From Candidatus Gastranaerophilales bacterium (GTDB lineage Bacteria; Cyanobacteriota; Vampirovibrionia; Gastranaerophilales; Gastranaerophilaceae): a stretch of 64,000 bases of DNA. The first letter of the stretch is position 1, and every line of letters begins with the position of its first letter. The notes below the pieces were generated by a model that ran no database searches, was not told the DNA's origin, and saw only the letters and a program-made list of their open reading frames with translations. A program made the position numbers and the translations under genes. Positions 36,332 to 61,400 of the stretch are shown in pieces. The stretch spans positions 1 through 64,000 of the forward strand of contig CALVBP010000008.1 of the NCBI GenBank assembly GCA_944325825.1, in the 5' to 3' direction.

Positions 36332-36437
36332 ATATTTGCCTCAACTTTTAAAGTCTTTCCATTAAATACAATATTCTCCTGGTGTTTTGAGATTTTTCTT
36401 CCTTTTATATATAATACATAGAATAGCATAATACACC

Positions 36438-42767: not shown

Positions 42768-43772
42768 CTAGGCGATATCCCATCTTCCGCATGTACCGCC
42801 CCAGCGTGCAATAATATTTCCTTTAATATCACCGATTTTTTCTACATGCCCGACGGGTTCTGCGCCTTCTAAAATAGTAATAACCTCACAGTTATTAGAA
42901 CATCCCGTGCACTGGCAAGTTACTGACTGGAAGTTCATATTACCGACTTCCCATCCTTTAAATTTGGTAGGAACTTCCGTATATTGATGATTTTCCATCG
43001 CAAGAAGCGCTGCACCTATCGCTCCCATCGTCTGGTGATTTTGCGGAACAACAATTTTTGTATTCAAAGCTTCTTCAAAAGCTTTTACCATACCGGAATT
43101 CGTCGCAACGCCGCCCTGGAATGATATTGTAGGAAGGAGCTCTTTTCCTAAAGCAAGGTTACTCAAATAATTTCTTACAAGAGCCTGGCATAAACCGTAT
43201 AGAAGGTCTTCTACAGGATATCCCAGCTGCTGTTTATGAATAAGGTCAGATTCTGCAAAAACTCCGCATCTTCCTGCAATACGTGCAGGGTTTTCGGATT
43301 TAAGAGCCGTTTCTCCGAACTTTTCAATAGGAACATTTAACCTTTGCGCCTGATGGTCTAAAAAGCTTCCTGTTCCTGCCGCACAAACAGTATTCATGGC
43401 AAAATCGGTTACAATACCGTCACGCAGAATAATAATTTTACTATCCTGTCCGCCGATTTCAAGAATTGTTTGAACTCCCGGAATATTAGTACTTGCCGCA
43501 ACAGCATGAGCAGTAATTTCGTTTTTAATAACATCCGCTCCAACAAGTGCGCCTGCAAGGTTTCTTCCGGAACCCGTAGTCCCGACACCCTGAACATTGT
43601 ATTCGCATAAAGCCTGTTTAATAATCTGCTGCAAACCATGTTGAACAGCATCAACAGGTTTCCCTGCCGTTTTTAGCATATAAGAATCTATATATTTACC
43701 TTTCTCATCAACTAACGCTAATTTTGTGGTAACAGACCCGACATCAATACCTAAATATACATCTAAACTCAT
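42768..43772 (-). CDS. acyl-CoA dehydratase activase (BadF/HgdC ATPase family)
   Basis: 334 residues. ASKHA-fold ATPase: GIDVGSVTTKLALVD near 7-21, EIGGQDSKIIIL near 92-103 and the second lobe SFQGGVATNSGMVKAFE. The two 4Fe-4S ligands of the dimer interface are NTVCAAGTGSFLDHQ near 118-132 and AGRCGVFAESD near 152-162. Such activases fire electrons into 2-hydroxyacyl-CoA dehydratases or benzoyl-CoA reductases. A C-terminal tail with CQCTGCSNNC and GGTCGRW is an extra, probably metal-binding part. No dehydratase lies nearby. GGAAGG upstream; kdsA follows at 21 bp. Confidence 0.88.
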   Translation of the reverse strand: MSLDVYLGIDVGSVTTKLALVDEKGKYIDSYMLKTAGKPVDAVQHGLQQIIKQALCEYNVQGVGTTGSGRNLAGALVGADVIKNEITAHAVAASTNIPGVQTILEIGGQDSKIIILRDGIVTDFAMNTVCAAGTGSFLDHQAQRLNVPIEKFGETALKSENPARIAGRCGVFAESDLIHKQQLGYPVEDLLYGLCQALVRNYLSNLALGKELLPTISFQGGVATNSGMVKAFEEALNTKIVVPQNHQTMGAIGAALLAMENHQYTEVPTKFKGWEVGNMNFQSVTCQCTGCSNNCEVITILEGAEPVGHVEKIGDIKGNIIARWGGTCGRWDIA

Positions 43773-44986: not shown

Positions 44987-45889
44987 TTACATAAATATAT
45001 CATAAAAATGATAAAATTGATAAGGGGCTATTTGGACCATTTTTTCGAGGAAATTTGTAAAGTTTTTCTGTAACACATTTGCAGAATTGTCCGACTGTTC
45101 TTCCAGATATACATCATATTTATGTTTATTTCTTATACAACTTATAAAATATGTTTTATAGTTTAAAATTTCTGCAAGTTTAAATGTTCCCACGGGCAAA
45201 TGTATTCTTTTATTCATAAAATCTGCTTCTATGCACCTATCAGGGTTATTGGAAGCAATCCTATCCCCGGCAATAAAAGCAATACCTCCGTCTTTTAAAT
45301 TATCGTCCAGTTCAGAAATTGTTGTTACGTCGAATTCTTCTATTGGATAAATTCTTAGATTTTCTTTTTTTGTTTCAAGAGAATTTATAAAGTTATTGAA
45401 AGTTTTACAGTGTTCTTTTTGCAGAAAGACAGAAACCGTACTCGGTCGTGAATGATTGTAATCCGAAAGAAAGGCTTTCATTATATCAATATTTCCTATA
45501 TGGTTACAAATAAAGAGCAATCCTTCTTTATCTTTCATTTGATTAAAAAATTTTTGACCGGCTTCTTCCTCTGGAAAACAAATATCATCAACATTATACG
45601 TTCCGGCAAAAGCCTCCATTTTATAAACAAGAGATTCCGCATAAGATAACACATGCCGTAATGAATTCAGAAAGGAAGGTTTATATTTTTTTTCACCCGT
45701 ATAAGAATATAGAGCCTCAAAATATTTACCGGAATATGTTCTTAAATCCCGATTTGTTAAAAGAGTTATAAGAGTAACAAAAAAAGCTATTAATAATAAA
45801 ACTCTTGTCCCTAATACTTTATAAAGATACCAGGAAATTAATAATCTTTTTTCACCTGCAGATTTTTCTTTAATATTAAACCATTCCAT
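44987..45889 (-). CDS. LpxL/HtrB-type acyltransferase of the aryl-polyene cluster
   Basis: 300 residues with a transmembrane start (LLLIAFFVTLITLL near 31-44) and a lysophospholipid-acyltransferase domain. The catalytic H-x4-D is H130-IGNI-D135 in LFICNHIGNIDIMK; GGIAFIAGDRI near 206-216 and FMNKRIHLPVGTFKLAEI near 225-242 match the substrate pocket of late lipid A acyltransferases. Proteobacterial aryl-polyene clusters carry this domain fused to a glycosyltransferase (ApeJ); here only the acyltransferase half exists. Likely joins the polyene to a lipid carrier. Overlaps the methyltransferase gene by 14 bp. Confidence 0.82.
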   Translation of the reverse strand: MEWFNIKEKSAGEKRLLISWYLYKVLGTRVLLLIAFFVTLITLLTNRDLRTYSGKYFEALYSYTGEKKYKPSFLNSLRHVLSYAESLVYKMEAFAGTYNVDDICFPEEEAGQKFFNQMKDKEGLLFICNHIGNIDIMKAFLSDYNHSRPSTVSVFLQKEHCKTFNNFINSLETKKENLRIYPIEEFDVTTISELDDNLKDGGIAFIAGDRIASNNPDRCIEADFMNKRIHLPVGTFKLAEILNYKTYFISCIRNKHKYDVYLEEQSDNSANVLQKNFTNFLEKMVQIAPYQFYHFYDIFM

Positions 45890-46937
45890 TTTTTCCGCAT
45901 TCCAATAATGTGTAATCGAACGGCCCGATATTATTATATACTCTTACAAGTTTCAGCCCGGCATTATTAATAAGCTCAACCATTTCATTCTGCTCATACA
46001 TCTTGCTGACCCCGTTTGCCATACAGGTAAAATATAATGAAATATGCACCAGTGCATATTTTGCCGCATCAAAAACCTGATTGTCCGTAAAAGGTTCCAG
46101 AATAAAAATTCGAGAAACATTATCCATGTTATTTTTAAGGTCGGTTAATATTTTAAGTATTTGTTCTTTTGAAAAACAATCCAGAAACTGGCTCATTAAA
46201 ATCGCACAATTATTCATCTTCGGATAAACTACATTATTATCAAGCACATTGACCGGATAAAAGTTACATCCGTTCAACGACGGCTCATTTAATCTTGCCG
46301 AGATGTTTTCTTTCAAATCCAGCATAGTAATATCAATATCGGGATTTTTAAGACAGATTTTTTCAAATTTACCTGTATTTCCGCCTATATCAAAAATTTT
46401 CTTAAAATCAGAAGAAATTATTTCAAAAACCTTATCAAAACAATTATCCGAATACAGGTTATCAAACTTGTACCAGCTTGACCTCGCAGGTTCCGGTAAT
46501 TTCGGCACCAGAGGATAAATTGTCTCTTCTTTATTAGAAATAAACTTCTTTAATCCTTCCGGTTTTTTATTAATAAAAGATTGAGTTAACTCACTCGCCC
46601 CAAGATAGCAGATATCTTTTACAAAATTAAAATTTGCAATAGTCATATCATCATATAAAAAAGCTTCACCTTTTGGAGTAAGCTTATATTTTCCGTCATC
46701 ATATTCTACTATATCAATTACTTCTGCTACTTGAATCAAAGTTTTTACCGTATAGCTGTCAAGATTGAGTTTTGATGCTATATCAGCTAAACTTGAAGGA
46801 TTTTTATTTAAAAATTTTAATATGTTTAAATCCAGCATTGCCGAAATCGTCTGAAAACTAAGAGGGGCAAAAGCAAGTTCCTGCGCCTTTGAAAGAGCGG
46901 TTATTCTGGTTTGTTTACGTTCACTATTCTTTTTCAT
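45876..46937 (-). CDS. O-methyltransferase-like enzyme of the aryl-polyene cluster
   Basis: 353 residues. Residues about 15-100 are a winged-helix dimerisation domain (LAFAPLSFQTISAMLDLNILKFL, SLADIASKLNLDSYTVKTLIQ, KYKLTPKGEAFLYDD), as in caffeate/hydroxyneurosporene O-methyltransferases. The SAM site is FDIGGNTGKFEKI near 181-193, MLDLKENIS, then ILMSQFLDCFS near 236. In aryl polyenes such an enzyme methylates the aryl head or hydroxyl group. No Shine-Dalgarno: tgaTATAAT ends six bases before the ATG, inside the 19-bp gap after the exporter gene, so it may also have its own leaderless transcript. Confidence 0.82.
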   Translation of the reverse strand: MKKNSERKQTRITALSKAQELAFAPLSFQTISAMLDLNILKFLNKNPSSLADIASKLNLDSYTVKTLIQVAEVIDIVEYDDGKYKLTPKGEAFLYDDMTIANFNFVKDICYLGASELTQSFINKKPEGLKKFISNKEETIYPLVPKLPEPARSSWYKFDNLYSDNCFDKVFEIISSDFKKIFDIGGNTGKFEKICLKNPDIDITMLDLKENISARLNEPSLNGCNFYPVNVLDNNVVYPKMNNCAILMSQFLDCFSKEQILKILTDLKNNMDNVSRIFILEPFTDNQVFDAAKYALVHISLYFTCMANGVSKMYEQNEMVELINNAGLKLVRVYNNIGPFDYTLLECGKNGMV

Positions 46938-46956
46938 AAAAAGATTATATCATATA

Positions 46957-49062
46957 TTATTCTCTGTCTGTAAAAACTTTAATCAAAATATAATTAAATA
47001 TAACCCCCAGAGAAGTTGTAAGAGCAAGAGTACTAATAAGTTTAAATGTTGTAAAAGACAAAAGCAGGAAGGAAAGTGCTGTCGTGATACAGGCGAGAAA
47101 AATTGCTGTCTCATTTTTAACAAGATTCTTCCTTCCAAAAATAGAATAATCTACAGTAAAACCGAGCGCTAACAACAGTCCCAGAAGATTAAAGAGATTT
47201 AAATCTATCCCAATAAGGCTTACAAATGCAATAACAAAGACCGATGAAATCAATAACGGCAGAAACATTTTCAGAGCTTGTTTATATCCGTATGATAAAA
47301 CCAGAATAAAGTACAATAAAAAATATATAACAGGAAGTATTTTTAAAAATCCGATTCTATATTCTCTTAAGTATTTAGATACTGTCCCCTGAAAATCAAC
47401 AATTTCAATATTTTTATTAACCTCCGGAATAAAATCCGAAAATGAAATAATAATTGAAGTATTATTATTCAACAATAAATCTTTAAAGAAAGAGAAATCC
47501 TCTATTTCTATACCTTGTGGTTTGTAAACTTCATTTATAAGCAGGTTTATTTGTTTATCAGATAAAATCCCTTTATAGTCTTTCAAATTATTCTCATACA
47601 ATAATTTTGTCAAAGTTTCATTCTCTTCCTGACGTTTAATTGACGGAATAAACTTTGATATACAAAGATAATTTATCCCTTTTTTATCAAGTAATGATGT
47701 CACAGACTCTTCATTCTCAAGAATTTTTTGTAAGGATTCGCCTTTTACAGCTAATATTACACTTTTTCCCCCTTCCAGATTCGAGATTTTATTAAAAAGT
47801 TTTTCTGCCTTTAATAAATTTTTTGCCGGAGTATAAAGAGAGGTCAAAGAATCATCAAAGTTTACTTTTAACAATCCTGTAATTATGCTGAAAATCACAA
47901 AAATTATTACTGATATTTTAATTTTTTTATTAAATTGAAACTTAAAAAAACGAACCGATTTTGGAAATTTTATGCATGGATAAATTGTTAATATAAAAAT
48001 ATATATAGCCGCTAAGCCGGCATTTGTAAACGTAGCAATTTGATTCAGTATATCAATTTTTAAGAAATACAGCAGAGAAAATGCCATCATTGTCGATAAA
48101 AGACTCAATGTTAAATCCTTAACAAAACTTTTATCAAAGTTTTCCGAAAAAATATAGTGATATGAATAATCAATACCTATACCGATAAGTGTTGTTCCGA
48201 AGAGGAACGTTATTATATGAAATGTGCTAAATATCGTTTTTGATATCGCAAAACCGGCAAGAAAACCAAACGCTATGTTTAGTGCTATAGGGAGGAGTAT
48301 TTTAAAGCTCCTGAAATAATAATAAGTCAAAAATATAATTAAAACCGTAATTAAAAAGCAGATTATATTTATGGATACAGAACTTGAAATACTCGTCTGA
48401 TATGTATGTACCGGTGTACCTGCAAGATATATATTATTTTTACCATCGGAATATTTGTTCTTGAGCTTTATAAGATTAGCTATAGCCGGACTCTGCATAT
48501 CTTGAGCGGCATTTAGTTTAAAAATTTCACTATCATAATATTTTCCGTCTATATAATAATTTTTGCTTCCGAGATTATTTGATAACAGAAAATCCGTCAG
48601 CAATAAAAAAGGATCTTTACTTACTTCAACCAATGGAATTCCTGCCGGATTATAAAGTCTTGCCAGACTCTGCTCATAAACCGCATTGTAATTTTTCTCT
48701 AATAAAAGCGCCCTTGTCTGCGGAGAAATAAAATTGACCGGAGAGTTGCTATACCAATCTAATAACCGTAAAAAATCTAAATTTGCCGGCAAAAAGTTTT
48801 TTTTATCAACCTCATCTACAAAATTTTGTTTTAATTCTTCCAGACTATTTTCATCATCAGATTCAAATATAACTTTTACAGATTTAGACTGCATGTCAGC
48901 AACGTCAATTATTCTGCTATTTTTGACAATATTTTCCGGAAGAATTGACTTTGCAAGATTTGTTTCAATCCCGCCAAAATTTCTTAACAGCAATATGAGA
49001 AATATAGCCGTTAAAATCGTTATAAAAAATATTCTTAATACCGTTATTCTATTGAAAACCAT
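46957..49062 (-). CDS. MMPL/RND-type exporter of the aryl-polyene cluster
   Basis: 701 residues, twelve-helix RND layout: TM1 near the N-terminus, a periplasmic loop (about 30-225), a helix block (about 228-370, ITVLIIFLTYYYF; IGIGIDYSYHYIF with the conserved GxDY), a second loop and a second helix block (about 555-700, LLLALGFTVDYSIF with the D-Y again). It should move the finished polyene lipid across the inner membrane. Corresponds to the exporter next to the LolA gene in known clusters (ApeM, as I recall). It overlaps the LolA-like gene by 19 bp, which implies translational coupling. Confidence 0.87.
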   Translation of the reverse strand: MVFNRITVLRIFFITILTAIFLILLLRNFGGIETNLAKSILPENIVKNSRIIDVADMQSKSVKVIFESDDENSLEELKQNFVDEVDKKNFLPANLDFLRLLDWYSNSPVNFISPQTRALLLEKNYNAVYEQSLARLYNPAGIPLVEVSKDPFLLLTDFLLSNNLGSKNYYIDGKYYDSEIFKLNAAQDMQSPAIANLIKLKNKYSDGKNNIYLAGTPVHTYQTSISSSVSINIICFLITVLIIFLTYYYFRSFKILLPIALNIAFGFLAGFAISKTIFSTFHIITFLFGTTLIGIGIDYSYHYIFSENFDKSFVKDLTLSLLSTMMAFSLLYFLKIDILNQIATFTNAGLAAIYIFILTIYPCIKFPKSVRFFKFQFNKKIKISVIIFVIFSIITGLLKVNFDDSLTSLYTPAKNLLKAEKLFNKISNLEGGKSVILAVKGESLQKILENEESVTSLLDKKGINYLCISKFIPSIKRQEENETLTKLLYENNLKDYKGILSDKQINLLINEVYKPQGIEIEDFSFFKDLLLNNNTSIIISFSDFIPEVNKNIEIVDFQGTVSKYLREYRIGFLKILPVIYFLLYFILVLSYGYKQALKMFLPLLISSVFVIAFVSLIGIDLNLFNLLGLLLALGFTVDYSIFGRKNLVKNETAIFLACITTALSFLLLSFTTFKLISTLALTTSLGVIFNYILIKVFTDRE

Positions 49063-49565
49063 TGAGTTGTTTTACTTCCGTCTTTCAGAGATATCACTAT
49101 TTTGTTTATATAATCAATTCCTTCGATTGTTATGGAATCAATATATTTATCCAACCCGCTTTTTACCTTGGGTTTTAATCCCAATGCCCAAGTATTGCCT
49201 GTTTTTTTGTAATAAAAGTCAAACGTATTGTCCAGTTTTGCATATTTTTTGTTTGAAATTGCAAGGATTATATCATTAATTTGTTCACAATCTTTATTCG
49301 TGTATGATGTTGTAATCCTGACAGGATAGGTTGTTTCAAAGAAAATACCCTGCTTTTTATCAAACCTGAAATTACCGCCGGAAACCAAAGGTTTATCAAT
49401 ATTTTTCAGAATCTTCTCCTGTTTAAATTTACATTCAATATTATTGAATTCCGGCAAGACTCCGGTCAAATCTTTCGCCGTAGTTTTATTTTCATATAAA
49501 GATGCACGACATGTTAGTATTGTCATAAACAAACAAATAAATAAATATATCAATTTATTTTTCAT
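49044..49565 (-). CDS. LolA-like periplasmic lipid carrier of the cluster
   Basis: 173 residues with a signal peptide (MKNKLIYLFICLFMTILTCRA, cleavage near 21). The mature part has the LolA half-barrel feel: FNNIECKFKQEKILKNIDKPLVSGGNFRFDKKQGIFFETTYPV (compare F-x-Q-x-x-L...L-x-x-P-x-x-S-G-x-L-x-F) and ALGLKPKVKSGLDKYIDSITIEG. Probably ferries the polyene lipid from the MMPL protein to the outer membrane. Counterpart of the LolA-like gene between thioesterase and exporter in classical clusters. Overlaps the thioesterase by 11 bp. Confidence 0.82.
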   Translation of the reverse strand: MKNKLIYLFICLFMTILTCRASLYENKTTAKDLTGVLPEFNNIECKFKQEKILKNIDKPLVSGGNFRFDKKQGIFFETTYPVRITTSYTNKDCEQINDIILAISNKKYAKLDNTFDFYYKKTGNTWALGLKPKVKSGLDKYIDSITIEGIDYINKIVISLKDGSKTTQWFSIE

Positions 49566-49968
49566 TATAAATACCTAATGTTTGTAATAATTTTTCAGGA
49601 GCATTATAAACACTTTCTCCTGTTTTGATATTGATACCTATTTGCATAGATTCTGCTTCAAAAACAATATCTACACCATTAAAAATTTTATATTTAATTA
49701 TAATAGCAGGCTCTATTTCAATAAGAGAGGTTTTAATCAAAATCTTCTGATTAAAACTTAGCGGTTTCACATATTTCATACTCATTTTAGCTATAGGATA
49801 AATGTAATTATCATCTTTCATATCATAATAGGTGTATCCTATTTTATCAAACATATCACAGCGAGACTGTTCCAGATATTTTACATAATTCCCATGCCAG
49901 ACGACATTCATCGGATCAAGGTCATGAAACGGGACTTTTATCTCTAATTCCGATTCAAATAAACTCAT
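49555..49968 (-). CDS. hot-dog thioesterase (4-hydroxybenzoyl-CoA thioesterase type)
   Basis: 137 residues. The family signature F-x-D-x-D-x-x-x-x-V-x-(W/H)-x-N-Y-x-x-Y is F14-HDLDPMNVVWHGNYVKYLEQSR with D18 the likely catalytic acid and H25 beside it. Single hot-dog fold, no signal peptide. In aryl-polyene clusters the thioesterase (ApeK) edits or releases acyl thioesters. The start overlaps the ligase stop by four bases and GAAGGAG is present upstream. Confidence 0.85.
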   Translation of the reverse strand: MSLFESELEIKVPFHDLDPMNVVWHGNYVKYLEQSRCDMFDKIGYTYYDMKDDNYIYPIAKMSMKYVKPLSFNQKILIKTSLIEIEPAIIIKYKIFNGVDIVFEAESMQIGINIKTGESVYNAPEKLLQTLGIYNEK

Positions 49969-51572
49969 TGAAGAACTCCTTCAAAAACATTTTCACATGA
50001 AAATACCCCCGAGGAAAGATTATTTTCATCATTATAATACTCAAAATTTATACTCTTTTCTTTATGAGTAAGTTTAAGATAAACAATTTCTCCCGAATGG
50101 ATTATATTACTGAACTTAATCCTACGAATCTGCCCGTCGCTTAGAGTTTTACTAAAGCAACGTTCTCCTAGAAAAGAAGCTAAATACAATTGGACAACCC
50201 CGGGTGTAATCGGATAATCCGGAAAATGTCCTGAATAAAAATTACAATTTTTATGAAAAAACAGTTTATAAATTACTGTATTATCACTACTTTCCCTGTC
50301 AAGCACCACAGGGAAAGTTAAATTTATTTCAAAAAGATGTTGAATATAAAGCTTATCAATTTTTCCGGCTCTTGTCCTCGGAATTATATCCGTAAATTTC
50401 CATCTCTGAGGAATAACGTCATATTTTAATTTACAAAAAGCTTTCAGATTTTTTATCAATTCTATTATTCCGTTTTTAAGTAAAAAATCTCTGCCAGTAT
50501 TTGTTAGAGCACACAAGCAGGCAATTTTATCATTATATTTAAAACAGAAGCTTTCCGAAACAAAGTCATTATCATTTAAAAAATTTTCCATATCCTCAGC
50601 AGAAACTCGTTTTTCCTGTATTTTTAAAAGTCTGTCTGTTCGATTTTTTAAAACAATTTTATTATTTACAATTTCAATCCTGTCACAAATTTCCACCTCA
50701 TTTTCCAGAGCATAAGGTGTTTTTACCATAACTGAATTTTCAAAAGGAAATATATTAACATTTTCAAACAAAGTCATATCTTTATGATTGGAATCTGTCC
50801 GGTATGCGATTACCCCTGTTTCCGTACTACCGTATATTTCTATAACTTTACAAAAACTTTCAAGATATTTATAGGTTTCATCTTTGAGTTTAGAACCCGC
50901 AGACGCTATGTATTTAGCACCGTTTAAAACCGCTCTGTTCTTTCTTGCCGAATCTAAAAAAGAGGGGGTTGATACAAAAAGACTGTTTTCTATATTATAC
51001 CTGTCAGGATACTCAATTACGTTCGCATAAATCGTTCTGTGTGTACACAAAGGAAAAGCAAAGGCCATCGTTAGACCGAAAAGATGGGCACATGTTGTTG
51101 ATGATGTTATAACAAGCTCTTCTTCTTTACTAAAATCGAATGTTTTATTAATATCAAGAGCCTCATTAATCAAATTGGTAAGATTTTTTTTTATACATTT
51201 ATTCTTCCCGCTGCTCCCTGAGGTCAATAGGTTAACATAACAATCTTCTTCTTTAATCACAGGAAAGTTGTTTACACTTATATTAAAATCAAACTCGCAT
51301 TTGTTTATAATATCAAAGTCAAAATCCAAATTTCTTATCTTATTAATATCATCAACAAGATAAATATTTTTACCCGTAAATATCGAGGCGAAAAAATTTA
51401 TTGTAAAAACAATAATGTCATCCGGAATTAATAAGACATTTTTCTTTTTTGTTTTTAAAACAGGTATATTAGCAAAAACATGCCCTTTTAATTCTTTATA
51501 GCTAACCTCTTTATTGCTGTTCTTCAAAACAATCCGGCTATCAAATTTATCGCTGTAAAAAGGTTTTAACAT
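49965..51572 (-). CDS. AMP-ligase fused to a FabZ-like dehydratase domain
   Basis: 535 residues, two enzymes in one chain. Residues 1 to about 410 are an adenylate-forming ligase: P-loop LLTSGSSGKNK at 115-125, EIYGSTETGVIAY near 243, PRTRAGKIDKLY near 406 with the terminal catalytic Lys. It should activate an aromatic acid and load it on an ACP. Residues about 425-535 are a hot-dog dehydratase, FYSGHFPDYPITPGVVQLYLASF near 447-469 holding the FabA/Z-type His. These correspond to ApeH and ApeI, separate in many clusters. The ligase half is shorter than free-standing relatives. TAATG coupling with the gene upstream. Confidence 0.87.
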   Translation of the reverse strand: MLKPFYSDKFDSRIVLKNSNKEVSYKELKGHVFANIPVLKTKKKNVLLIPDDIIVFTINFFASIFTGKNIYLVDDINKIRNLDFDFDIINKCEFDFNISVNNFPVIKEEDCYVNLLTSGSSGKNKCIKKNLTNLINEALDINKTFDFSKEEELVITSSTTCAHLFGLTMAFAFPLCTHRTIYANVIEYPDRYNIENSLFVSTPSFLDSARKNRAVLNGAKYIASAGSKLKDETYKYLESFCKVIEIYGSTETGVIAYRTDSNHKDMTLFENVNIFPFENSVMVKTPYALENEVEICDRIEIVNNKIVLKNRTDRLLKIQEKRVSAEDMENFLNDNDFVSESFCFKYNDKIACLCALTNTGRDFLLKNGIIELIKNLKAFCKLKYDVIPQRWKFTDIIPRTRAGKIDKLYIQHLFEINLTFPVVLDRESSDNTVIYKLFFHKNCNFYSGHFPDYPITPGVVQLYLASFLGERCFSKTLSDGQIRRIKFSNIIHSGEIVYLKLTHKEKSINFEYYNDENNLSSGVFSCENVFEGVLQ

Positions 51573-51964
51573 TACAGATTATGCCTCTTTCTGAAAATAA
51601 TTCTTACAATATATTCTATTATAAATATAGTACCGACCAAAAAATAAGAGAAAAAACAGTTATAAAACATCCATACTGTATCATTCAGAAAAATCGTTAT
51701 AACCGATACAACAAAATTAAGGAACAAAAATACACACCACACATAAGTAAGTTTTTTTGTATACTCAAGCTCAAGGGGATGAAGATTTTTACTCCACATT
51801 CTTGCAAATTTTTGTATAATAGTTTCTCGGGTAAATAAAGAACTGAAAAAAATTAAAAATATTGTAAAATTCATTACCGGAGGGTAAAAACGTATTACAA
51901 AAAACCTTTTAAAATAAAAGAGTACAAATAAACATATCGTAAATATAAAAGGTAAAAATCTCAT
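51572..51964 (-). CDS. small integral membrane protein of the aryl-polyene cluster
   Basis: 130 residues, four hydrophobic stretches (FIFTICLFVLFYF; MNFTIFLIFFSSLF; VWCVFLFLNFVVSVITIFL; YFLVGTIFIIEYIV) and the RETIIQKFARMW element between the second and third. Size, topology and position between ACP and ligase match the COG4648-type membrane protein of other clusters (ApeG). Its role is unknown; it may anchor the synthase at the membrane. No Shine-Dalgarno; starts one base after the ACP stop, so translation is probably coupled. Confidence 0.8.
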   Translation of the reverse strand: MRFLPFIFTICLFVLFYFKRFFVIRFYPPVMNFTIFLIFFSSLFTRETIIQKFARMWSKNLHPLELEYTKKLTYVWCVFLFLNFVVSVITIFLNDTVWMFYNCFFSYFLVGTIFIIEYIVRIIFRKRHNL

Positions 51965-51965
51965 C

Positions 51966-52217
51966 TTAAATTAAGTCATAGATTGCATTAACAACATCAT
52001 CTACTGTGCGTATTTGTTTAAACTCCTCAGGAGAGATTTTCTTGTCAGTAAACTGTTGAAGCCTGACAGCTAAATCAACCGCATCAATACTGTCAAATCC
52101 TAAATCAGTAAACAAATTTGCCTCGTTTGAAATATCATTGCTGTCAACTTCAAAATCATTGATAAGGATTTCTGCTAATTTATTTTTTATTTCTTCTTTA
52201 GAATAAGGCTTAGCCAT
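51966..52217 (-). CDS. acyl carrier protein (second in operon)
   Basis: 83 residues. The phosphopantetheine serine lies in LGFDSIDAVDLAVRLQ near 43, preceded by ANLFTDL and followed by a C-terminal helix ending VNAIYDLI. Acidic overall. One of a tandem pair, as in known aryl-polyene clusters, where the two ACPs divide starter loading and chain extension. AAGGAG lies upstream; it overlaps the other ACP gene by eight bases. Confidence 0.92.
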   Translation of the reverse strand: MAKPYSKEEIKNKLAEILINDFEVDSNDISNEANLFTDLGFDSIDAVDLAVRLQQFTDKKISPEEFKQIRTVDDVVNAIYDLI

Positions 52218-52467
52218 TTTTCTGACTCCTTATTAAATCTGCCAGCGTGTTAACTGAATAGAAATGCTTTACATTTTCTTCTTTATTGGAACTCAAAGTT
52301 AAGTTAAAATGCCTTTTCAATGCCATTCCTAACTCCAGCGCATCAATAGAATCAAGCCCTAATCCTTCTCCGAATAAAGCTTCGTCGTTTTTTATATCAG
52401 CAATTGTTATGTCTTCCAAATCTAAAGATTTTATAATTAAATCTTTTATTTCATCTTCTAATATCAT
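52210..52467 (-). CDS. acyl carrier protein (first in operon)
   Basis: 85 residues with the phosphopantetheine site GLGLDSIDALELGMALKRHF near 40 and the helix-1 start EDEIKDLIIKSLDLEDITI. The GLGLDSID variant differs from the LGFDSID of its partner, suggesting that the two ACPs have separate clients. The C-terminal part HFYSVNTLADLIRSQK includes an unusual VKHFYS strand typical of aryl-polyene ACPs. AGGA at nine bases. Follows the PlsC gene by 29 bp. Confidence 0.92.
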   Translation of the reverse strand: MILEDEIKDLIIKSLDLEDITIADIKNDEALFGEGLGLDSIDALELGMALKRHFNLTLSSNKEENVKHFYSVNTLADLIRSQKNG

Positions 52468-52496
52468 AATAAAATCCTAACATACTAAATCTTTTT

Positions 52497-53240
52497 TTAC
52501 AATTCATAGAGAGCTTTTTTTATTTCGTTTGTTAAATCCCTTTTCTGTAAAACCTCGTCTTGATATTCCATAAATTTTTCTATCTCAATGATTTTCCCTG
52601 CTCTAATAGTGTAGGCTACCGGCTTTTCGCCCGCATCGTAGAAAGGCTGTCCTATTTGAAGAAAATCAAAATCAGTCGACATAATGACAGGCACAATGTC
52701 TTTTTTTGAATTTATTGCCGTTAATGCGGCTCCTTTATGTATTTTAGGGTATTCATTCTTTCTGTGTCTTATTCCTGCCGGGAAAATCAATATATTGAAA
52801 CCGTAATCAAACATCTTTTTAGTATCCTCTTTCAATTCTTCTAAAGACTTGCCGGATATTAAAAACATAGATTCAACAATCCGTTTAAAAAATTTGTTGC
52901 GGGTGAGCTTTGGAGCAACAAAGCAGGTGGTTTTAGGAATAAGAGCGAGTAATATCAATACATCTATATAGCTCGGGTGGGTTGAAACTATAATTGAATT
53001 TTTTATTGTTTTTAATTTTTCAATATTGCCAATATCAAGCTTAATTATTTTAATAAACCTTATGAAATTAACAAATACACGCCAGGATGAATGTACAACT
53101 GATGAATATATATCCATTCTTTTATCCTGATTTTTGAAAAACAATCGTATAAGCGGAAAAATTAACATCCCGACAAGTAGGGAGCCGATACCGAAAATTG
53201 AAAAACTTATAACCATTAAAAAACTTCTTAAAGCCTTCAT
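52497..53240 (-). CDS. PlsC-type 1-acyl-glycerol-phosphate acyltransferase of the cluster
   Basis: 247 residues with an N-terminal membrane helix (FLMVISFSIFGIGSLLVGMLIFPLI) and the LPLAT catalytic H-x4-D in VSTHPSYIDVLILLAL near 86-91; the glycerol-phosphate-type site is FPAGIRHRKNEYP near 150, and the KGAALTAINSKKDIVPV strand follows. In classical clusters the gene sits between the chain-length factor and the ACPs (ApeD), exactly as here. It probably esterifies the polyene or its lipid anchor. Overlaps the chain-length factor by four bases (ATGA). Confidence 0.85.
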   Translation of the reverse strand: MKALRSFLMVISFSIFGIGSLLVGMLIFPLIRLFFKNQDKRMDIYSSVVHSSWRVFVNFIRFIKIIKLDIGNIEKLKTIKNSIIVSTHPSYIDVLILLALIPKTTCFVAPKLTRNKFFKRIVESMFLISGKSLEELKEDTKKMFDYGFNILIFPAGIRHRKNEYPKIHKGAALTAINSKKDIVPVIMSTDFDFLQIGQPFYDAGEKPVAYTIRAGKIIEIEKFMEYQDEVLQKRDLTNEIKKALYEL

Positions 53241-53836
53241 CTATCTGCTCTTTCTAGGATAAACCCGCTGCATTTTATACTGAAGCATTTTTTGTCAAAG
53301 AGTTTTACTAAATCGTTGATACATATATTACTATCTTTAAATTTTTCTTCTTTCAAGATGTATTTTTCTTTACCCGCTGTTTTAATACAAAAGGACATTC
53401 CAAAAATACCTTCTTCCGCATCATCAGCATAGCAATATATCACATTATTATGACCTGATGTAATTGCCGTAATAAGACCGCTTATAAAAGTTTCCTCGCC
53501 TGCTGCGGTCGAAACGGTAGGAATTGTTCTTTTTTTCAATATAGATAGTTGACCGAGAGGATAGTTATGCACTGATGCCGAAAACATCATCGGGGAAACT
53601 TCATTATCTTCTTTATATTGAGCTATAAGTTTTACAAGTCTGTCGAATTCCCCATACCTTGATGCCAAAACTATATTTTCCGTACCATCTTCAAGAGAAT
53701 GATTTAACAAATATAAAACATGCCGGTCAAAAGTATTTAATCTGCGTCTTATGTTTGAAGGAATAAAACTTAAATCCAGCTCTTCATCTTTGCTTGTGTA
53801 AATAAATTTATCAATGTAAAAGGACAGACTATTCAT
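53237..53836 (-). CDS. beta-ketoacyl synthase chain-length factor (KS-like, no active Cys)
   Basis: 199 residues from the ATG at 53836. Matches the ketoacyl-synthase chain-length-factor family: LNTFDRHVLYLLNHSL, IVLASRYGEFDRLVKLI, SPMMFSASVHNYPLGQLSI, and TVSTAAGEETFISGL, where the usual active-site Cys is replaced in the AAGEE motif. In characterised clusters this subunit (ApeC) pairs with ApeO to set chain length. It is a little short for the family (about 240). The ATG is six bases from a perfect TATAAT with no Shine-Dalgarno; an extended reading to 54034 would run into the divergent gene and is rejected. Confidence 0.85.
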   Translation of the reverse strand: MNSLSFYIDKFIYTSKDEELDLSFIPSNIRRRLNTFDRHVLYLLNHSLEDGTENIVLASRYGEFDRLVKLIAQYKEDNEVSPMMFSASVHNYPLGQLSILKKRTIPTVSTAAGEETFISGLITAITSGHNNVIYCYADDAEEGIFGMSFCIKTAGKEKYILKEEKFKDSNICINDLVKLFDKKCFSIKCSGFILERADR

Positions 53837-53866
53837 GCTAATATTATAGTATAAACAGGAAATGAT
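53837..53866. promoter_or_regulatory. 30-bp divergent promoter of the two aryl-polyene operons
   Basis: Only 30 bp separate the two start codons. On the minus strand TATAAT (plus 53843-53848) ends six bases before the ATG of the chain-length factor. On the plus strand tatagt-like boxes overlap the same bases and AGGA precedes the KS start at 53867. Both operons must share this segment, so they are likely co-regulated. Confidence 0.6.
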
Positions 53867-55003
53867 ATGGGAATAAAAATAACCGCTTACGAAGCAATAT
53901 GCAATATGGGATTGAATATTGATGAAATTTTTCATCGTGCAATAGCCGGTGAAAATAATCATTTTGTTCTTGAAAAAAATCTTATTAAAGATTACTCCTT
54001 TCGTCTGGGGAAAATTGACACAGAATTGGAACAAATAGAAGACCCCGACTTTAATACCCGCTGCAACCGCCTGATTTTATACGTTCTTAAATTATTAAAC
54101 CCGCAAATTACCGAACTATTTAATAAATATTCAAAAGAGGAAATCTCAATAATAGCAGCATCGACGAATTGCGGAGTCGAAGAATATGAAAAAAGCGGAC
54201 TAAAAACGCATTCTGAACTCGGAAATCCTGCAATGTTTGTAAAAAAGCATTTGGGGTTAAATAATACCGCAATTACGATTTCAACAGCATGCTCTTCCGG
54301 TGCAAAAGCTTTTTCAATAGCTAAAAACTACCTGGAAGCAGGTATTTCAAAAGCTGCTTTAGTAATCGGAGTTGATTCTTTAACGAAACTTCCTCTTTAC
54401 GGATTCAGTTCTTTAGAAATATTAAGCCCTGAACCAACAAACCCTTTCAGTAAAAATTATACAGGCATAAATATAGGAGAGGCCTGTACAATTTTTGTTC
54501 TGGAAGATACTAATAATAGCGGTATAAAACTACTGGGAACAGGTGAAAGTTCTGATATTTTTCACAGTACAACTCCCGACCCCGAAGCAAAAGAAGTTAA
54601 AAATGCCATTCTTCAAGCTTTACATAATTCCGGAATAAAGCCGGAAGAAGTTAATTATATAAACCTCCACGGTACCGGAACTTTAGCTAATGACATGATG
54701 GAGGCTGAAGCTGTAAACACTATTTTCGGCACACATACTCCGGCAAGCTCTACAAAACCATTAACCGGACATTGTCTTGGCGCCGCAGCGAGTATTGAAA
54801 CTGCTCTTTGCTGCCATCTGCTTAACAATTTTTCCGGGAAACTATTCCCGCACATATACGATTCAGAATACAATCCTTCATTGAAACCAATAAATCTGAT
54901 AAAAACACAAAACTTGTATGACAAATGCAATATTTGCATTTCCAACTCTTTTGGTTTTGGAGGAACAAATGCTATTATTGTATTAGGAAAAGATAATGGA
55001 TAA
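53867..55003 (+). CDS. beta-ketoacyl-ACP synthase of the aryl-polyene cluster (ApeO-like)
   Basis: 378 residues with a complete Cys-His-His triad: Cys in ISTACSSGAKAF near 142, His in LHGTGTLANDMMEAEAV near 268 and His in KPLTGHCLGAAAS near 304; SFGFGGTNAIIV closes the fold. By position (first of the KS-DH-KR-KS operon) and by the divergent non-catalytic partner next door, it matches the KS that forms a heterodimer with the chain-length factor. AGGA at seven bases. It is shorter than FabF (about 410). The following DH overlaps it by eight bases. Confidence 0.9.
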   Translation: MGIKITAYEAICNMGLNIDEIFHRAIAGENNHFVLEKNLIKDYSFRLGKIDTELEQIEDPDFNTRCNRLILYVLKLLNPQITELFNKYSKEEISIIAASTNCGVEEYEKSGLKTHSELGNPAMFVKKHLGLNNTAITISTACSSGAKAFSIAKNYLEAGISKAALVIGVDSLTKLPLYGFSSLEILSPEPTNPFSKNYTGINIGEACTIFVLEDTNNSGIKLLGTGESSDIFHSTTPDPEAKEVKNAILQALHNSGIKPEEVNYINLHGTGTLANDMMEAEAVNTIFGTHTPASSTKPLTGHCLGAAASIETALCCHLLNNFSGKLFPHIYDSEYNPSLKPINLIKTQNLYDKCNICISNSFGFGGTNAIIVLGKDNG

Positions 55004-55442
55004 CAAAGATTATTTAGAAAAAATACTTCCGCACAAAAAACCTATGATATTAATAGATGACATCCTCGGATACTCTATTAAAGAGGGCTGGCTTAGGAGT
55101 GTGGTTACTATAAATAATAACAGCTTATTTTTTGATAAAACTCTCGGCGGCATTTCTTCCGTTGCCGGAATTGAATACATGGCACAAACCATTGGTTGTT
55201 ATGCCTTTTTAAAATCAGGGCGGGAAGAACCTCAAATAGGCTTTCTTCTCGGAACAAGGCTTTATAATAACAAGCTTTCATTATTTAAAGAAAATGAAAC
55301 TTTTGAAATACTGGTAAAAGAAGTATTTTCCGGGAATGATATAGTCTCTTTTGACTGTTTCATTTATAATCATAATGAAGAGGTTGCAAGCGCCACAGTT
55401 AATGTTTACCAAAACGAAGAAACAGGGGTCTTAAATGTCTAA
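54996..55442 (+). CDS. hot-dog 3-hydroxyacyl-ACP dehydratase (ApeP-like)
   Basis: 148 residues. EKILPHKKPMILIDDILGY near 5-23 is the conserved start of the ApeP/FabZ-like family (L-P-H-x-x-P-M-x-L-(I/L)-D), and AGIEYMAQTIGCYAFLKSG near 56-74 the long central helix with its Glu/Gln pair. The FabZ His is in the LPH element. In characterised systems ApeP pairs with ApeI to dehydrate chain intermediates; here the ApeI partner is the C-terminal domain of the ligase fusion. Overlaps the genes on both sides by eight bases. Confidence 0.86.
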   Translation: MDNKDYLEKILPHKKPMILIDDILGYSIKEGWLRSVVTINNNSLFFDKTLGGISSVAGIEYMAQTIGCYAFLKSGREEPQIGFLLGTRLYNNKLSLFKENETFEILVKEVFSGNDIVSFDCFIYNHNEEVASATVNVYQNEETGVLNV

Positions 55443-56160
55443 AACAGTTTTAATAACGGGAGCAAGCAGGGGAATTGGTAAAGAAACCGCTTTGTATCTG
55501 GCAAAACACGGATATTCTTTAGTTCTTCATTGTAATAAAAATATTCAAAAGCTTGAAGAAGTCCAAAAAGAAATTACTCAACTCGGCTCGGAATCAAGAC
55601 TGATTCAGTTCGACATTTCTGACAGAAAAGCTTGTAATGAAAAATTACTAAAAGATGTAGAAGAAAACGGAACATACTATGGTATTGTATTAAATGCCGG
55701 AATCGCTAAAGATAATCCGTTCCCCGGAATGGAAGATTCTGACTGGGATGAGGTAATTAATACAAACCTAAACGGTTTTTATAATGTATTAAGACCTGTT
55801 ATCCTTTCCATGATACAAAACAGAAAAGGGCGAATCATAGCCCTTTCATCAGTGTCCGGTCTTGCCGGAAACAGAGGTCAGGTCAACTATAGCGCATCTA
55901 AAGCCGGTATAATAGGTGCAGTTAAAGCCCTTAGTCTTGAAGTTGCCAAACGCAAAATAACTGTAAACTGTGTTGCTCCGGGTATTATTGAAACAGATAT
56001 GACAACCGGATTACCCGATGAAATGATAAAAGAATATGTTCCGATGAAAAGAGCCGGCTCTGCAAAAGAAGTTGCCAGCCTTATTAACTATTTGATGAGC
56101 GAAGATGCCGGTTATATAACCGGACAGGTTATTTCCGTAAATGGGGGTATGTACTTATGA
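55435..56160 (+). CDS. 3-ketoacyl-ACP reductase (ApeQ-like SDR)
   Basis: 241 residues, classical short-chain dehydrogenase: nucleotide loop ITGASRGIGKETA at 6-18, NAGIAKD near 86-92, catalytic S in SSVSGLAGNRG near 139, Y152-x3-K156-type YSASKAG, and the C-terminal GQVISVNGGMYL. A FabG-type reductase for the polyene chain. AGGGG precedes the ATG; its stop overlaps the next KS (ATGA). Confidence 0.93.
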   Translation: MSKTVLITGASRGIGKETALYLAKHGYSLVLHCNKNIQKLEEVQKEITQLGSESRLIQFDISDRKACNEKLLKDVEENGTYYGIVLNAGIAKDNPFPGMEDSDWDEVINTNLNGFYNVLRPVILSMIQNRKGRIIALSSVSGLAGNRGQVNYSASKAGIIGAVKALSLEVAKRKITVNCVAPGIIETDMTTGLPDEMIKEYVPMKRAGSAKEVASLINYLMSEDAGYITGQVISVNGGMYL

Positions 56161-57389
56161 CATCAAAAAGAGTCGTTGTAACAGGAATGGCACTCACAAG
56201 CCCTCTCGGGTCTTCCGTAAAATCCGCCTTTAACAGACTGCATCAGTACGAAAACTGCATTGAATACGACACAAAACTTGACGCATACGAAAATTTGTAC
56301 ACAAGACTCTCTGCAAGGGTTAAAGATTTTAAACAGCCTGATTGTTTTAACAGAAAAGTTACCCGCACAATGGGAGATGTTGCAATTATGGCAGTTACAA
56401 CGGCAAGAGAAGCCCTCCTGGATGCCGGTCTGCTGGACAATTCAATTATAAGCAGCAGTGAAACAGGAGTCAGCTATGGCTCCTCAAGCGGCTCTTTAGA
56501 TGCAATACTGGATTTTTATTCAATGCATATAGACAAAAAAGTCCGTAATTTAAATTCAGGTTCATATATAAAAATGATGCCTCAGACCACTGCCGTAAAT
56601 ATCTCTTTGTATTTTAAAACCCATGGACGTCTGGTAAACGCTTCGACGGCCTGCACATCAGGTGCTGTTGGAATAGGTTCTGCTTATGAACTTATTAAAA
56701 ACGGAATACAAACCGTTATGATATCAGGAGGGGCTGAAGAATTCCACCCGACACAGGTAGGAATTTTCGATACCCTATATGCAACAAGCACAAAAAACGA
56801 TACCCCTAAACTTACGCCATCTCCGTTTGATGTTTCAAGAGACGGGCTTGTTATAGGAGAAGGCGCCGGAACTTTAATTTTGGAAGAATACGAACATGCG
56901 ACTGCCCGTGGGGCAAAGATTTATGCGGAAATTATAGGATATTCAACTAACACCGACGGAACCCATATTACAAACCCTAATTCAGAAACAATGGGAATTG
57001 TAATGCAACAAGCCCTTGATGCTGCAAAGCTGCCGGCAAAAGAAATCGGTTACATAAACGCTCACGGCACCGGAACAAAATACGGAGATATTGCGGAGAC
57101 AAAGGCTACCGAATTTGTACTGGGAAATAATACTCCGATAAGCTCCCTAAAGAGTTATACAGGACATACTCTTGGGGCTTGCGGCGCTATTGAAGCAATT
57201 TTATCGATTGAGATGATGAATAATAATTGGTTTTGTCCGACATTGAATCTGAAAGAGGTTGACCAAGATTGCGGACAGCTCGATTATATAAAAGACGGCG
57301 GACGGAATCTTGAAATTGAATATTTTATGACAAACAACTTTGCATTCGGCGGAATCAATACTTCTTTAATATTTAAACGCATGCAATAA
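56157..57389 (+). CDS. beta-ketoacyl-ACP synthase, FabF-like (ApeR-like)
   Basis: 410 residues with a full triad: Cys in NASTACTSGAVGIGSAYE near 164, His in NAHGTGTKYGDIAETKA near 301, His in KSYTGHTLGACGAIE near 338, and NNFAFGGINTSLIF at the end. In known aryl-polyene clusters this last KS of the operon (ApeR) acts as an independent homodimer, probably for early extension steps. It ends the operon; the next gene has its own promoter. Confidence 0.92.
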   Translation: MTSKRVVVTGMALTSPLGSSVKSAFNRLHQYENCIEYDTKLDAYENLYTRLSARVKDFKQPDCFNRKVTRTMGDVAIMAVTTAREALLDAGLLDNSIISSSETGVSYGSSSGSLDAILDFYSMHIDKKVRNLNSGSYIKMMPQTTAVNISLYFKTHGRLVNASTACTSGAVGIGSAYELIKNGIQTVMISGGAEEFHPTQVGIFDTLYATSTKNDTPKLTPSPFDVSRDGLVIGEGAGTLILEEYEHATARGAKIYAEIIGYSTNTDGTHITNPNSETMGIVMQQALDAAKLPAKEIGYINAHGTGTKYGDIAETKATEFVLGNNTPISSLKSYTGHTLGACGAIEAILSIEMMNNNWFCPTLNLKEVDQDCGQLDYIKDGGRNLEIEYFMTNNFAFGGINTSLIFKRMQ

Positions 57390-58450: not shown

Positions 58451-61400
58451 ATGAGTGATATTATAAAATCAGGAATTATAGCTTTAGGATTTAAGCCTAA
58501 AGATGGGTGTTGCAATGTTTATTTCAAGAAATTTGGAGCTTATGAAATAAATATCAATTATAATGAAAATAATCCTGAAAAATCTAATATTGATTATGGC
58601 AAAGATATAAAATGTGGAAGAAAAACAACAAGTAATTTTTCTCAAAATGAATCTTTTGTTGTTTTAGAATGTGTGAATAGATTATTAGAAAAAGGGTACA
58701 ATCCAAACAGTATAGTATTGGAACAACCATATAAAGCTGGGCATAAGGATTGTTATCTTGACATATTAGTGAAAGATCTTGATAATAAATCATTTTTGAT
58801 GATTGAATGCAAAACTTGGGGAAAGGAATACGAAAAAGAAAAAAATCAAATTTTTAAAGATGGGGGGCAATTATTAAGTTATTTCAACCAAGATAAGAAT
58901 AGTAAAGCTTTGTGTTTATACGCATCTCATATTGAAAATAATGAAATTTCATACAGAAATGACATTATAGACACAAAAGAACTAAGCGGAAATAATGTAC
59001 AAGAATTGTTTGATAGTTGGGATAATACTTTTTATCAAAAAGGTATTTTCGAAAAGCAAATAAACGCTTATGATTACAAGAATATTGGCTTAACTTATGA
59101 TGATTTACAAGATTTAAAAGATACGGATGGCGGAACAATATTTAATCATTTTGCAGAAATTTTAAGAAAACACATTGTTTCTGATAAAACAAATGCTTTT
59201 AATAAAATGTTTAATCTTTTTATTTGCAAAATCCAAGATGAAGATGATAATTATGATAAAGACGCTGATTTAAAGTTTCAATTTAAATGCAATGACACTT
59301 ATGAAAGTTTTTTTGATAGATTAAATAACTTATACAAAAGAGGCAATAAAAATTACATTGATATTGATTTACCAGATATAAGCCAAGATGATTTTGATAA
59401 ATTATTAAAGCTTGCTGATGGAAAAGATGAGCATTTAAGAAAAACTTTTAATGAATTGAGATATTATAGAAGTTCTCAAGAGTTTTCTTTTAAGGAGGTT
59501 TATAATAAAGAAACTTTTGAAGAAAATGCTGAAATTGTAAAAGAAATAGTTAAACTTTTGCAAGGATATAAAATTAAATATTCTCAAAAACATCAATATT
59601 TAGGCGATTTTTTTGAATTATTGTTAAATACAGGTATCAAACAAGAAGCAGGACAATTTTTCACTCCAATACCACTTACAAGATTTATTTGTAAGTCAAT
59701 TCCGATAAAAGAAATTATAGAGGACAAAAATAATAAAAAAAATGACAATTTCTTACCTTATGTTATTGATTATGCCTGTGGTAGCGGACATTTCTTAACT
59801 GAAATTATGGATGAAATTGACACATACGTTAAAGATTTCAAAGCAGAAGACATTAAAGGTTCCAGAATTGCAAAAGAAAACTTTGAGTCACTAAGAAATA
59901 ATTTAAAATGGTCAAAAGAATATGTATATGGAATTGAAAAAGATTATAGACTGGTAAAAACATCTAAAGTGAGCTCATTTTTAAATGGTGATGGCGATGC
60001 AAACGTAATGGCAGCTGATGGATTAGCGCCATTTAATGATAAAAAATACAAAGGGATATTAAGAACAGAGGAATTACAAAAAAATAATTCCAAATTTGAT
60101 ATTTTAGTTGCAAATCCACCATATTCAATAAGTGGTTTTAGAACGACATTAAAAGAAGGTAAAAAATGTTTTGATTTGTATAAAAGATTAACGGACAACA
60201 GTTCTGAAATTGAATGTTTATTTGTGGAACGTGCCATTCAATTATTAAAAGAAGGTGGTGTTGCAGGAATAGTGCTTCCCGTATCGATTTTAACAAATGG
60301 CGGAATTTATGAAAAAACAAGAGAATTAATTCTAAAAAACTTTGATATTGTTGCTATTCAAAAGCTCGGCGATAACGCCTTTATGGCAACCGGAACTAAA
60401 ACAATTATTCTTTTTATGAGAAGAAAGAGTAATTTAGCATATTCTAATATAGAAAAATTGGTTGATAAATTTTTAAATGATTTTAAAGATGTTACAATTA
60501 ATGGAATTGAACATGCTTTTTCTACCTATGTTAATAATGTATTTGAAGATATATCATTTGAGGATTACATAAGCATATTACAAGATAATCCAACTGAAAA
60601 AGCAAAAAAAAGTGAAATTTTGGGCGAATATAAAGATTACCCTATTGAAAAAATACTTGAAACCGAGAAAGAAAAATTAGTCTATTTTATAATTTCATAT
60701 TCTCAAAAAATTATTTTAAGCGACTCATTAGAAAAAGATATTGAAAAAGAATTTTATGGCTATGAATTTTCTAATAGAAAAGGTCATGAAGGAATTCATA
60801 TATATAAAGATGAAGATGGAGTTTTGCAAAGCAAACTTTATAATCCTGAAAATCTTTATGATGAAGAAAAGGCTAACTTCTATATTTTAAATAATTTTAA
60901 TGGATTGAATTCAGAAAAAATAATTAATGAAATAAAACAATCAGAAGACCATCCACTGAGAAATCATATTGATTATATCAACCTATCTGATTTAATGTCA
61001 TTTGATTTAAAAACATTTGATAAACAAATTAATCTTAACTTTAAAAAAAAACTAAAAATTGAGAGTAAGTATCCAGTATATAAAATTGCACAAATAAAAA
61101 GTTTAGAAGTGCAAAAAGGAACCAGTATAACAGCAAAGGAAACTCAAGATGGAGATATACCAGTAATAGCGGGAGGAATTAAGCCTGCTTATTTTCATAA
61201 CGTTGCTAATAGAGGTGTAAATACAATAACCATAAGTGCTTCTGGGGCGAATGCGGGTTATATTAATTTTTTTGAAATCCCAATATGGGCTTCTGATTGT
61301 TCGACAATAATTTCTTTAAACGAAAATAATATTAAGATCAAATATGTTTATGAATTATTAAAATCGATTCAAAAACAGATATATTTATATCAAAAGGGTA

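Follow-up and report, generated by a model that had tools for sequence, protein, structure and literature searches.

The window analysed here is a 64,000-nucleotide stretch of contig CALVBP010000008.1, part of a 57-contig draft genome of Candidatus Gastranaerophilales bacterium, and at 44987-57389 it contains 15 tightly packed open genes, each with a counterpart in the aryl-polyene (Ape) clusters of Proteobacteria. Eleven of them, read on the minus strand between 53836 and 44987, follow the order chain-length factor (CLF), PlsC, acyl carrier protein (ACP), ACP, small membrane protein, ligase-dehydratase fusion, thioesterase, LolA-like, MMPL, methyltransferase and LpxL-like; the other four, at 53867-57389 on the plus strand, are in the order ketosynthase (KS), dehydratase, ketoreductase (KR) and KS. 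The genes that the original prediction listed for this interval are all present and open, in the order it gave. Taken together, gene set, catalytic residues, phylogeny and conservation indicate, with good confidence, that this gut Gastranaerophilales genome carries a cluster of aryl-polyene type, of the ApeB-R kind seen in Proteobacteria. The features are listed below; catalytic-residue counts were read from alignment columns, and the loci counted are 34 loci of the same order (L002, L039-L058 and L060-L072), chosen because they bear the CLF.

53237-53836, minus strand: CLF, ApeC-like; PF13723 at 87 bits (cut-off 25); SPxxFxxSVHN motif in 34 of 34 order loci
52497-53240, minus strand: PlsC-type acyltransferase, ApeD-like; PF01553 at 47.6 bits
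52210-52467, minus strand: ACP 1; PF00550 at 31.4 bits; carrier serine in 29 of 29 sequences
51966-52217, minus strand: ACP 2; PF00550 at 52.5 bits; carrier serine in 29 of 29 sequences
51572-51964, minus strand: small membrane protein, ApeG-like by place; profile matches at the equivalent position in other Ape clusters
49965-51572, minus strand: acyl-ACP ligase fused to an ApeI-like dehydratase (ApeH-ApeI); PF00501 at 48.4 bits, PF22818 at 26.5 bits
49555-49968, minus strand: 4HBT-type thioesterase, ApeK-like; PF13279 at 43.6 bits
49044-49565, minus strand: LolA-like carrier, ApeL-like; NF053544 at 43.8 bits, below its cut-off of 125; LolA fold in the model
46957-49062, minus strand: MMPL/RND-type transporter, ApeM-like; PF03176 at 21.6 bits (cut-off 20.5)
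45876-46937, minus strand: methyltransferase, ApeB/FlxJ-like; PF00891 at 26.9 bits; NF053543 at 313.6 bits, below its cut-off of 560
44987-45889, minus strand: LpxL-like acyltransferase (acyltransferase part of ApeJ); PF03279 at 21.7 bits, just below its cut-off of 22.3
53837-53866, no strand: 30-base gap between the divergent starts, from coordinates; the same 30 bases in L002
53867-55003, plus strand: elongating KS, ApeO-like; best PDB match 6qsp_A at 237 bits; tree placement; Cys-His-His in 35 of 35 ApeO-type sequences
54996-55442, plus strand: dehydratase, ApeP-like; PF22817 at 41.9 bits (cut-off 27)
55435-56160, plus strand: KR, ApeQ/FabG-like; PF00106 at 182 bits, FabG2 TIGR01831 at 340 bits (cut-off 338.85); Tyr and Lys in 34 of 34
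56157-57389, plus strand: KS, ApeR-like; PRK09116 at 615 bits (cut-off 470); best PDB match 7f27_A at 479 bits; Cys-His-His in 34 of 34 ApeR-type sequences
40635-42746, minus strand, flank outside the cluster: AroA (5-enolpyruvylshikimate-3-phosphate, EPSP, synthase) and KdsA (3-deoxy-D-manno-octulosonate 8-phosphate, KDO-8-P, synthase); TIGR01356 at 409 bits and TIGR01362 at 389 bits, both above cut-off

The mechanically called open reading frame of the CLF begins too early, at 54034 within the KS gene; the start conserved in relatives is at 53836. As the divergent starts are only 30 bases apart, the promoters must overlap coding sequence. Two ACPs, a FabG-like KR and two dehydratases are all present, as in Ape clusters, together with genes for the LolA, MMPL and acyltransferase proteins that would attach the product to the outer membrane, and no enoyl reductase gene was found in the cluster. 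Among the window proteins, the LolA-like protein has no Pfam match and the small membrane protein has neither a Pfam nor an NCBIfam match, the latter being identified only by its position and by profile matches in other clusters.

Against solved structures, the best chain for the elongating KS was followed by one at 183 bits, and that for the second KS by one at 460 bits, with FabF chains from 266 bits down; the best-matching chains 6qsp_A and 7f27_A, as well as 6qsr_A, are ones that we take to be Ape enzymes. A KS tree of 50 rows was built by a quick method. Its rows come from the window, from 15 of the 34 loci of the order and from references, which are clusters carried on plasmids; of two FabF rows, one is an unannotated L066 protein to which we gave that label. 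The 16 ApeO rows of window and order form one clade (SH-aLRT 99) that adjoins seven reference ApeO rows (97), the union of the two having SH-aLRT 90 and not being starred. The 16 ApeR rows of window and order likewise form one clade (99), inside a group (99) that takes in five of the six ApeR references; FabF is placed outside both Ape groups. The assignment to the aryl-polyene class made in the original prediction is thereby upheld by KS phylogeny, and neither of the outcomes it had named as refuting, ketosynthases outside the clade or a lineage known for aryl polyenes, was encountered. The CLF of Moellerella matches the solved chains 6qsp_B (250 bits) and 7f28_A. The idea that the CLF is truncated was dropped, 7f28_A being an already solved 204-residue CLF of similar kind.

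Complete clusters recur in the order. All 15 genes are found in 15 of the 34 loci and nine more are short of the methyltransferase only, and on these counts the gene set is not due to chance; among the remaining loci, six are without the ligase half and four have other gaps or a changed arrangement, some of them lying where a contig ends. Other genes stand beside the KS-CLF part in G297, G219, G156, G362 and G333, where the ligase lies at a separate site and the cluster is therefore split, and in G168 the contig ends where the ligase half would be. Across 382 genomes of the class (genus, family and order codes as given by the search tool), PF13723 of the CLF was detected in 126 genomes, from 26 of 97 genera, and the ligase-dehydratase profile in 127; 125 genomes carry both, G147 the CLF only, and G149 and G243 the ligase only. 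The window's order accounts for 125 of the 126 CLF genomes, the exception being G017. A phylum sample, for which the share outside the class is not given, yielded matches in 72 of 309 genomes, all in the window's family. The trait is patchy, with at least 16 genomes of the window's own genus without the CLF. The single-genome view taken at the outset was thus too narrow, as the cluster occurs in about a third of the sampled class genomes.

Individual loci show further variation. The KS-CLF and ligase parts stand at different places in L040, L041, L052, L058 and L068. KSO frames of about 500-547 amino acids occur without a separate ApeP frame in L042, L043, L052, L065 and L070, and their length, the only basis for this reading, suggests ApeO-ApeP fusions. 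Ligase frames without the first 90-100 or so residues were seen in L042, L043 and L039, as well as in G004 and G240, and some genomes have stop codons in the matched stretch. PPTase-like (phosphopantetheinyl transferase-like) genes beside the cluster in L045, L047, L062 and L063 had been chosen by eye and were set aside, that of L062 scoring 21.6 bits against a cut-off of 27 and that of L045 giving no match.

The lineage proposed earlier, Vampirovibrionia or Melainabacteria, was borne out by the nearest named record, a contig of Candidatus Gastranaerophilales that shares both the cluster and its flank; NCBI places Gastranaerophilales within Candidatus Melainabacteria. This contig, the one relative found in a CLF scan of named genomes (63% identity), carries the whole cluster and has the same left flank, with VTT 94% and BadF 98% identical (172 of 334 residues, at the locus end), whereas the cluster proteins that were compared are 62-85% identical. 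No SSU (small-subunit, 16S) rRNA was found in the draft genome; RpoB groups it with three congeners and is 98% identical to that of G297. The RpoB tree holds the window genome with its genus at support 99, and a tree of five concatenated cluster proteins joins the window to G304, G166, G355, G357 and G365 of other genera at support 100. Because the two trees conflict, the sequence comparisons indicate that the cluster moves horizontally. Approximately unbiased (AU) tests, under LG+G4 only, rejected both a constraint that keeps the genus together (p-AU 0.0018) and one that separates the family from the two genomes belonging to other families (p-AU 0.0004). At the window's site, the cluster genes of G551 adjoin the same flank as in the window, and G550 keeps that flank (BadF 99.7%, VTT 93%) but shows none of the cluster genes across the 6 kb read there.

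The fused ligase and the LolA-like carrier were also modelled. The dehydratase part of the fusion matches PDB chain 6qsr_A at 30 bits, and the ligase motifs are present, with the C-terminal lysine in 29 of 29 sequences in alignment columns. For the ligase model (predicted local distance difference test, pLDDT, 88.3), feruloyl-CoA synthetase headed the VIA-align ranking (Z 30.4, root-mean-square deviation (rmsd) 10.4, 384 aligned), level with MenE, benzoate ligase and DltA. Aryl-acid ligases are thus among the equally close top structures, and the comparison does not settle the substrate. The model of the LolA-like protein (pLDDT 78.8) matches LolA 8t5j (Z 16.0, rmsd 2.1, 131 aligned), which supports a LolA fold for this ApeL-like protein.

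By analogy with E. coli deletions and in-vitro work on X. doucetiae, as described in PMC8253772, an ACP would be charged with an aromatic acid by the ligase, the first step of the chain, with malonyl-ACP, would fall to the ApeR-type KS, and ApeO with the CLF would carry out elongation. The KR and the two dehydratases would leave one double bond per round, since the cluster is without an enoyl reductase. The thioesterase would free the polyene, the methyltransferase would alter the head group where its gene is present, the two acyltransferases would attach the polyene to a lipid, and the LolA- and MMPL-type proteins would ferry it to the outer membrane for a presumed antioxidant role there. KdsA in the window and the lipid A genes reported for the group (PMC4040986) fit an outer membrane.

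Several results weigh against this assignment. Three profile matches fall below their cut-offs, namely the ApeI-like dehydratase domain PF22818 (26.5 bits against 28.5), Lip_A_acyltrans of the LpxL-like protein (21.7 against 22.3) and FlxJ of the methyltransferase; the Burkholderia ApeR row was placed outside the reference ApeR group; and in the Foldseek ranking the top structure for the ligase model was DltA, which acts on D-alanine. Inspection of the window cluster and the other order loci, without a profile search for either, showed no glycosyltransferase or DUF3261 (ApeN) gene, which suggests a different lipid anchor or receptor. The remaining points concern the starter. In 38 cluster genomes, 37 of the order chosen for genus breadth plus G017, chorismate lyase PF04345 was detected in none (0/37 for the order; E. 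coli control positive), nor was chorismatase TIGR04444 (0/37 for the order), for which sensitivity is unsure as the sole control match was below cut-off. Aromatic ammonia-lyase PF00221 is found in 68 of the 382 class genomes, none of them in the window's order, and G017 is the only one that also has the CLF.

No known starter enzyme was found in these searches, which covered three families and not PF01947 or other routes. The polyene class of the product is well supported, while its aryl head is something that we infer. The same machinery could be primed by an aliphatic or other acid to give a conjugated polyene without an aryl head, and the starter results, the DltA ranking and the absence of the methyltransferase from nine otherwise complete loci of the 34 all lean that way; we nevertheless consider this improbable. 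In the KS tree the window's ApeR- and ApeO-type enzymes fall in with their counterparts from aryl-polyene clusters, and the E. coli cluster is itself without a starter gene, relying on UbiC encoded elsewhere (PMC8253772). Moreover, AroA beside the cluster suggests that the shikimate pathway is present, and an unrecognised chorismate-using route is therefore possible. On the aryl-polyene reading, the cell probably either imports its aromatic starter from the gut or makes it by a route that has escaped recognition. A BadF-type activase at 42768-43772, feeding the cluster through an aryl-acrylate-making dehydratase, was entertained as a source and rejected as unlinked, since its neighbours are AroA and KdsA and it persists in G550, where the 6 kb read at the site contain no cluster genes.

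A flexirubin-type cluster from Bacteroidota is a far weaker explanation. FlxJ-, FlxB- and LolA2-family matches exist, but all lie under the curated cut-offs (313.6 against 560, 284 against 340 and 43.8 against 125 bits), and the methyltransferase is equally near E. coli and Moellerella (36-38% identity) and Persicobacter (35%). The Persicobacter cluster differs in order and gene set, and its flexirubin-like KS rows lie outside the Ape clades, a placement qualified by long branches and by the use of a single genome. Of the flexirubin- or xanthomonadin-kind polyene first envisaged, the Ape class is supported by the KS tree; a flexirubin kinship lacks support from the profile scores, and the aryl head is presumed. 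A binning or assembly artefact bringing in a cluster of another gut bacterium, conceivable in a 57-contig draft whose gene set resembles proteobacterial clusters, is exceedingly improbable and largely refuted by recurrence with native flanks, as the same-contig flank matches a Gastranaerophilales record (BadF 98%, VTT 94%), the CLF recurs in 125 order genomes and, in the KS tree, the sequences sampled from the order make up clades of their own.

The sampled cluster carriers of the order also lack the carotenoid/squalene synthase PF00494 (0/37; 1/38 overall, in G017; Synechococcus control positive), in agreement with the earlier proposal of a polyene in place of carotenoids. Tentatively, and as a possibility that we rate below even, a gut lineage free of carotenoid synthase would pass the Ape machine between genera and make a scavenging aryl polyene, primed by phenolic acids that come with the diet or are released by neighbouring organisms, or else by the product of an unknown enzyme. 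If so, this membrane antioxidant would depend on gut phenolics, and with a scavenged starter both pigment and oxidative-stress fitness would hinge on dietary or microbial supply.

Aryl-polyene clusters had been credited beforehand to Proteobacteria and Bacteroidetes, but more phyla are already on record: PMC8863827 reports such clusters in assemblies of Treponema, Victivallis and Prevotella from the gut, and PMC9769736 in Bacteroidetes, Lentisphaerae and Verrucomicrobia. With Ape clusters known in several phyla, a further phylum is therefore an extension and not a new kind. No aryl polyene from this lineage was found in the open literature searched, with subscription papers and supplementary tables outside its scope, and antiSMASH tables may well list such clusters. 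The cluster is a known class in a lineage for which we found no report, with modest differences in content. Through it, a major class of yellow bacterial membrane pigment gains a gut lineage on the non-photosynthetic side of the cyanobacterial phylum; the window's gene set is nearly complete, and the cluster is present in roughly one third of the sampled genomes. It also raises the questions of why it moves between genera without carotenoid synthase and where the aromatic starter comes from. Gene clusters best matching Gastranaerophilaceae MH_37 and Zag_1 are listed in PMC6594340 as negatively correlated with body mass index, with no cluster type named alongside, and these might be the Ape cluster.

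Elsewhere in the window, a low-GC stretch at 58451-62158 encodes a 1235-amino-acid fused restriction-modification-like protein (N6_Mtase, Eco57I, two Methylase_S stretches and a weak HSDR_N), and two adjoining sulfatase-domain proteins lie at 34676-38117.

Finally, the cluster was compared with known systems, the proteobacterial references being E. coli apeA-apeR (on CP061233) and relatives (L034, L082-L085 and L087). L059 (G017:C81, 1-9047), an Ape-like cluster from a different family within the class, shares CLF, PlsC, ACPs, membrane protein, ligase, dehydratase and thioesterase; it differs in having a glycosyltransferase and an aromatic ammonia-lyase, its genome has PF00494, and its KS genes are not on the 9-kb contig. 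Contamination is possible for this G017 cluster. The flexirubin-type cluster on plasmid pPP6 of Persicobacter psychrovividus (L081) shares CLF, ketosynthases, KR, ACPs, LpxL-like protein, FlxJ-like methyltransferase, thioesterase and LolA, but is much more divergent, has another gene order and includes an aromatic ammonia-lyase. This and the Roseomonas cluster gave partial matches only. The Cupriavidus, Acinetobacter, Pseudoalteromonas and Burkholderia clusters have counterparts of 14 of the 15 genes, the methyltransferase being without a match, in one shared order, and in Cupriavidus and Acinetobacter the ligase and dehydratase also match within a single open frame, like the window. The E. 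coli (L034) and Moellerella (L082) clusters have counterparts of all 15, the profiles having been built from the order loci, L034 and L059, so that E. coli is itself inside them; both carry a glycosyltransferase and ApeN, whereas by inspection the window is without the glycosyltransferase part, ApeN or ApeA. The gene order had been called that of proteobacterial and Bacteroidetes clusters alike. The likeness fails for Persicobacter, the only Bacteroidota cluster tested, and holds for the proteobacterial clusters, relative to which the window has its KS-dehydratase-KR-KS block divergent and its methyltransferase and LpxL-like genes relocated to the end.

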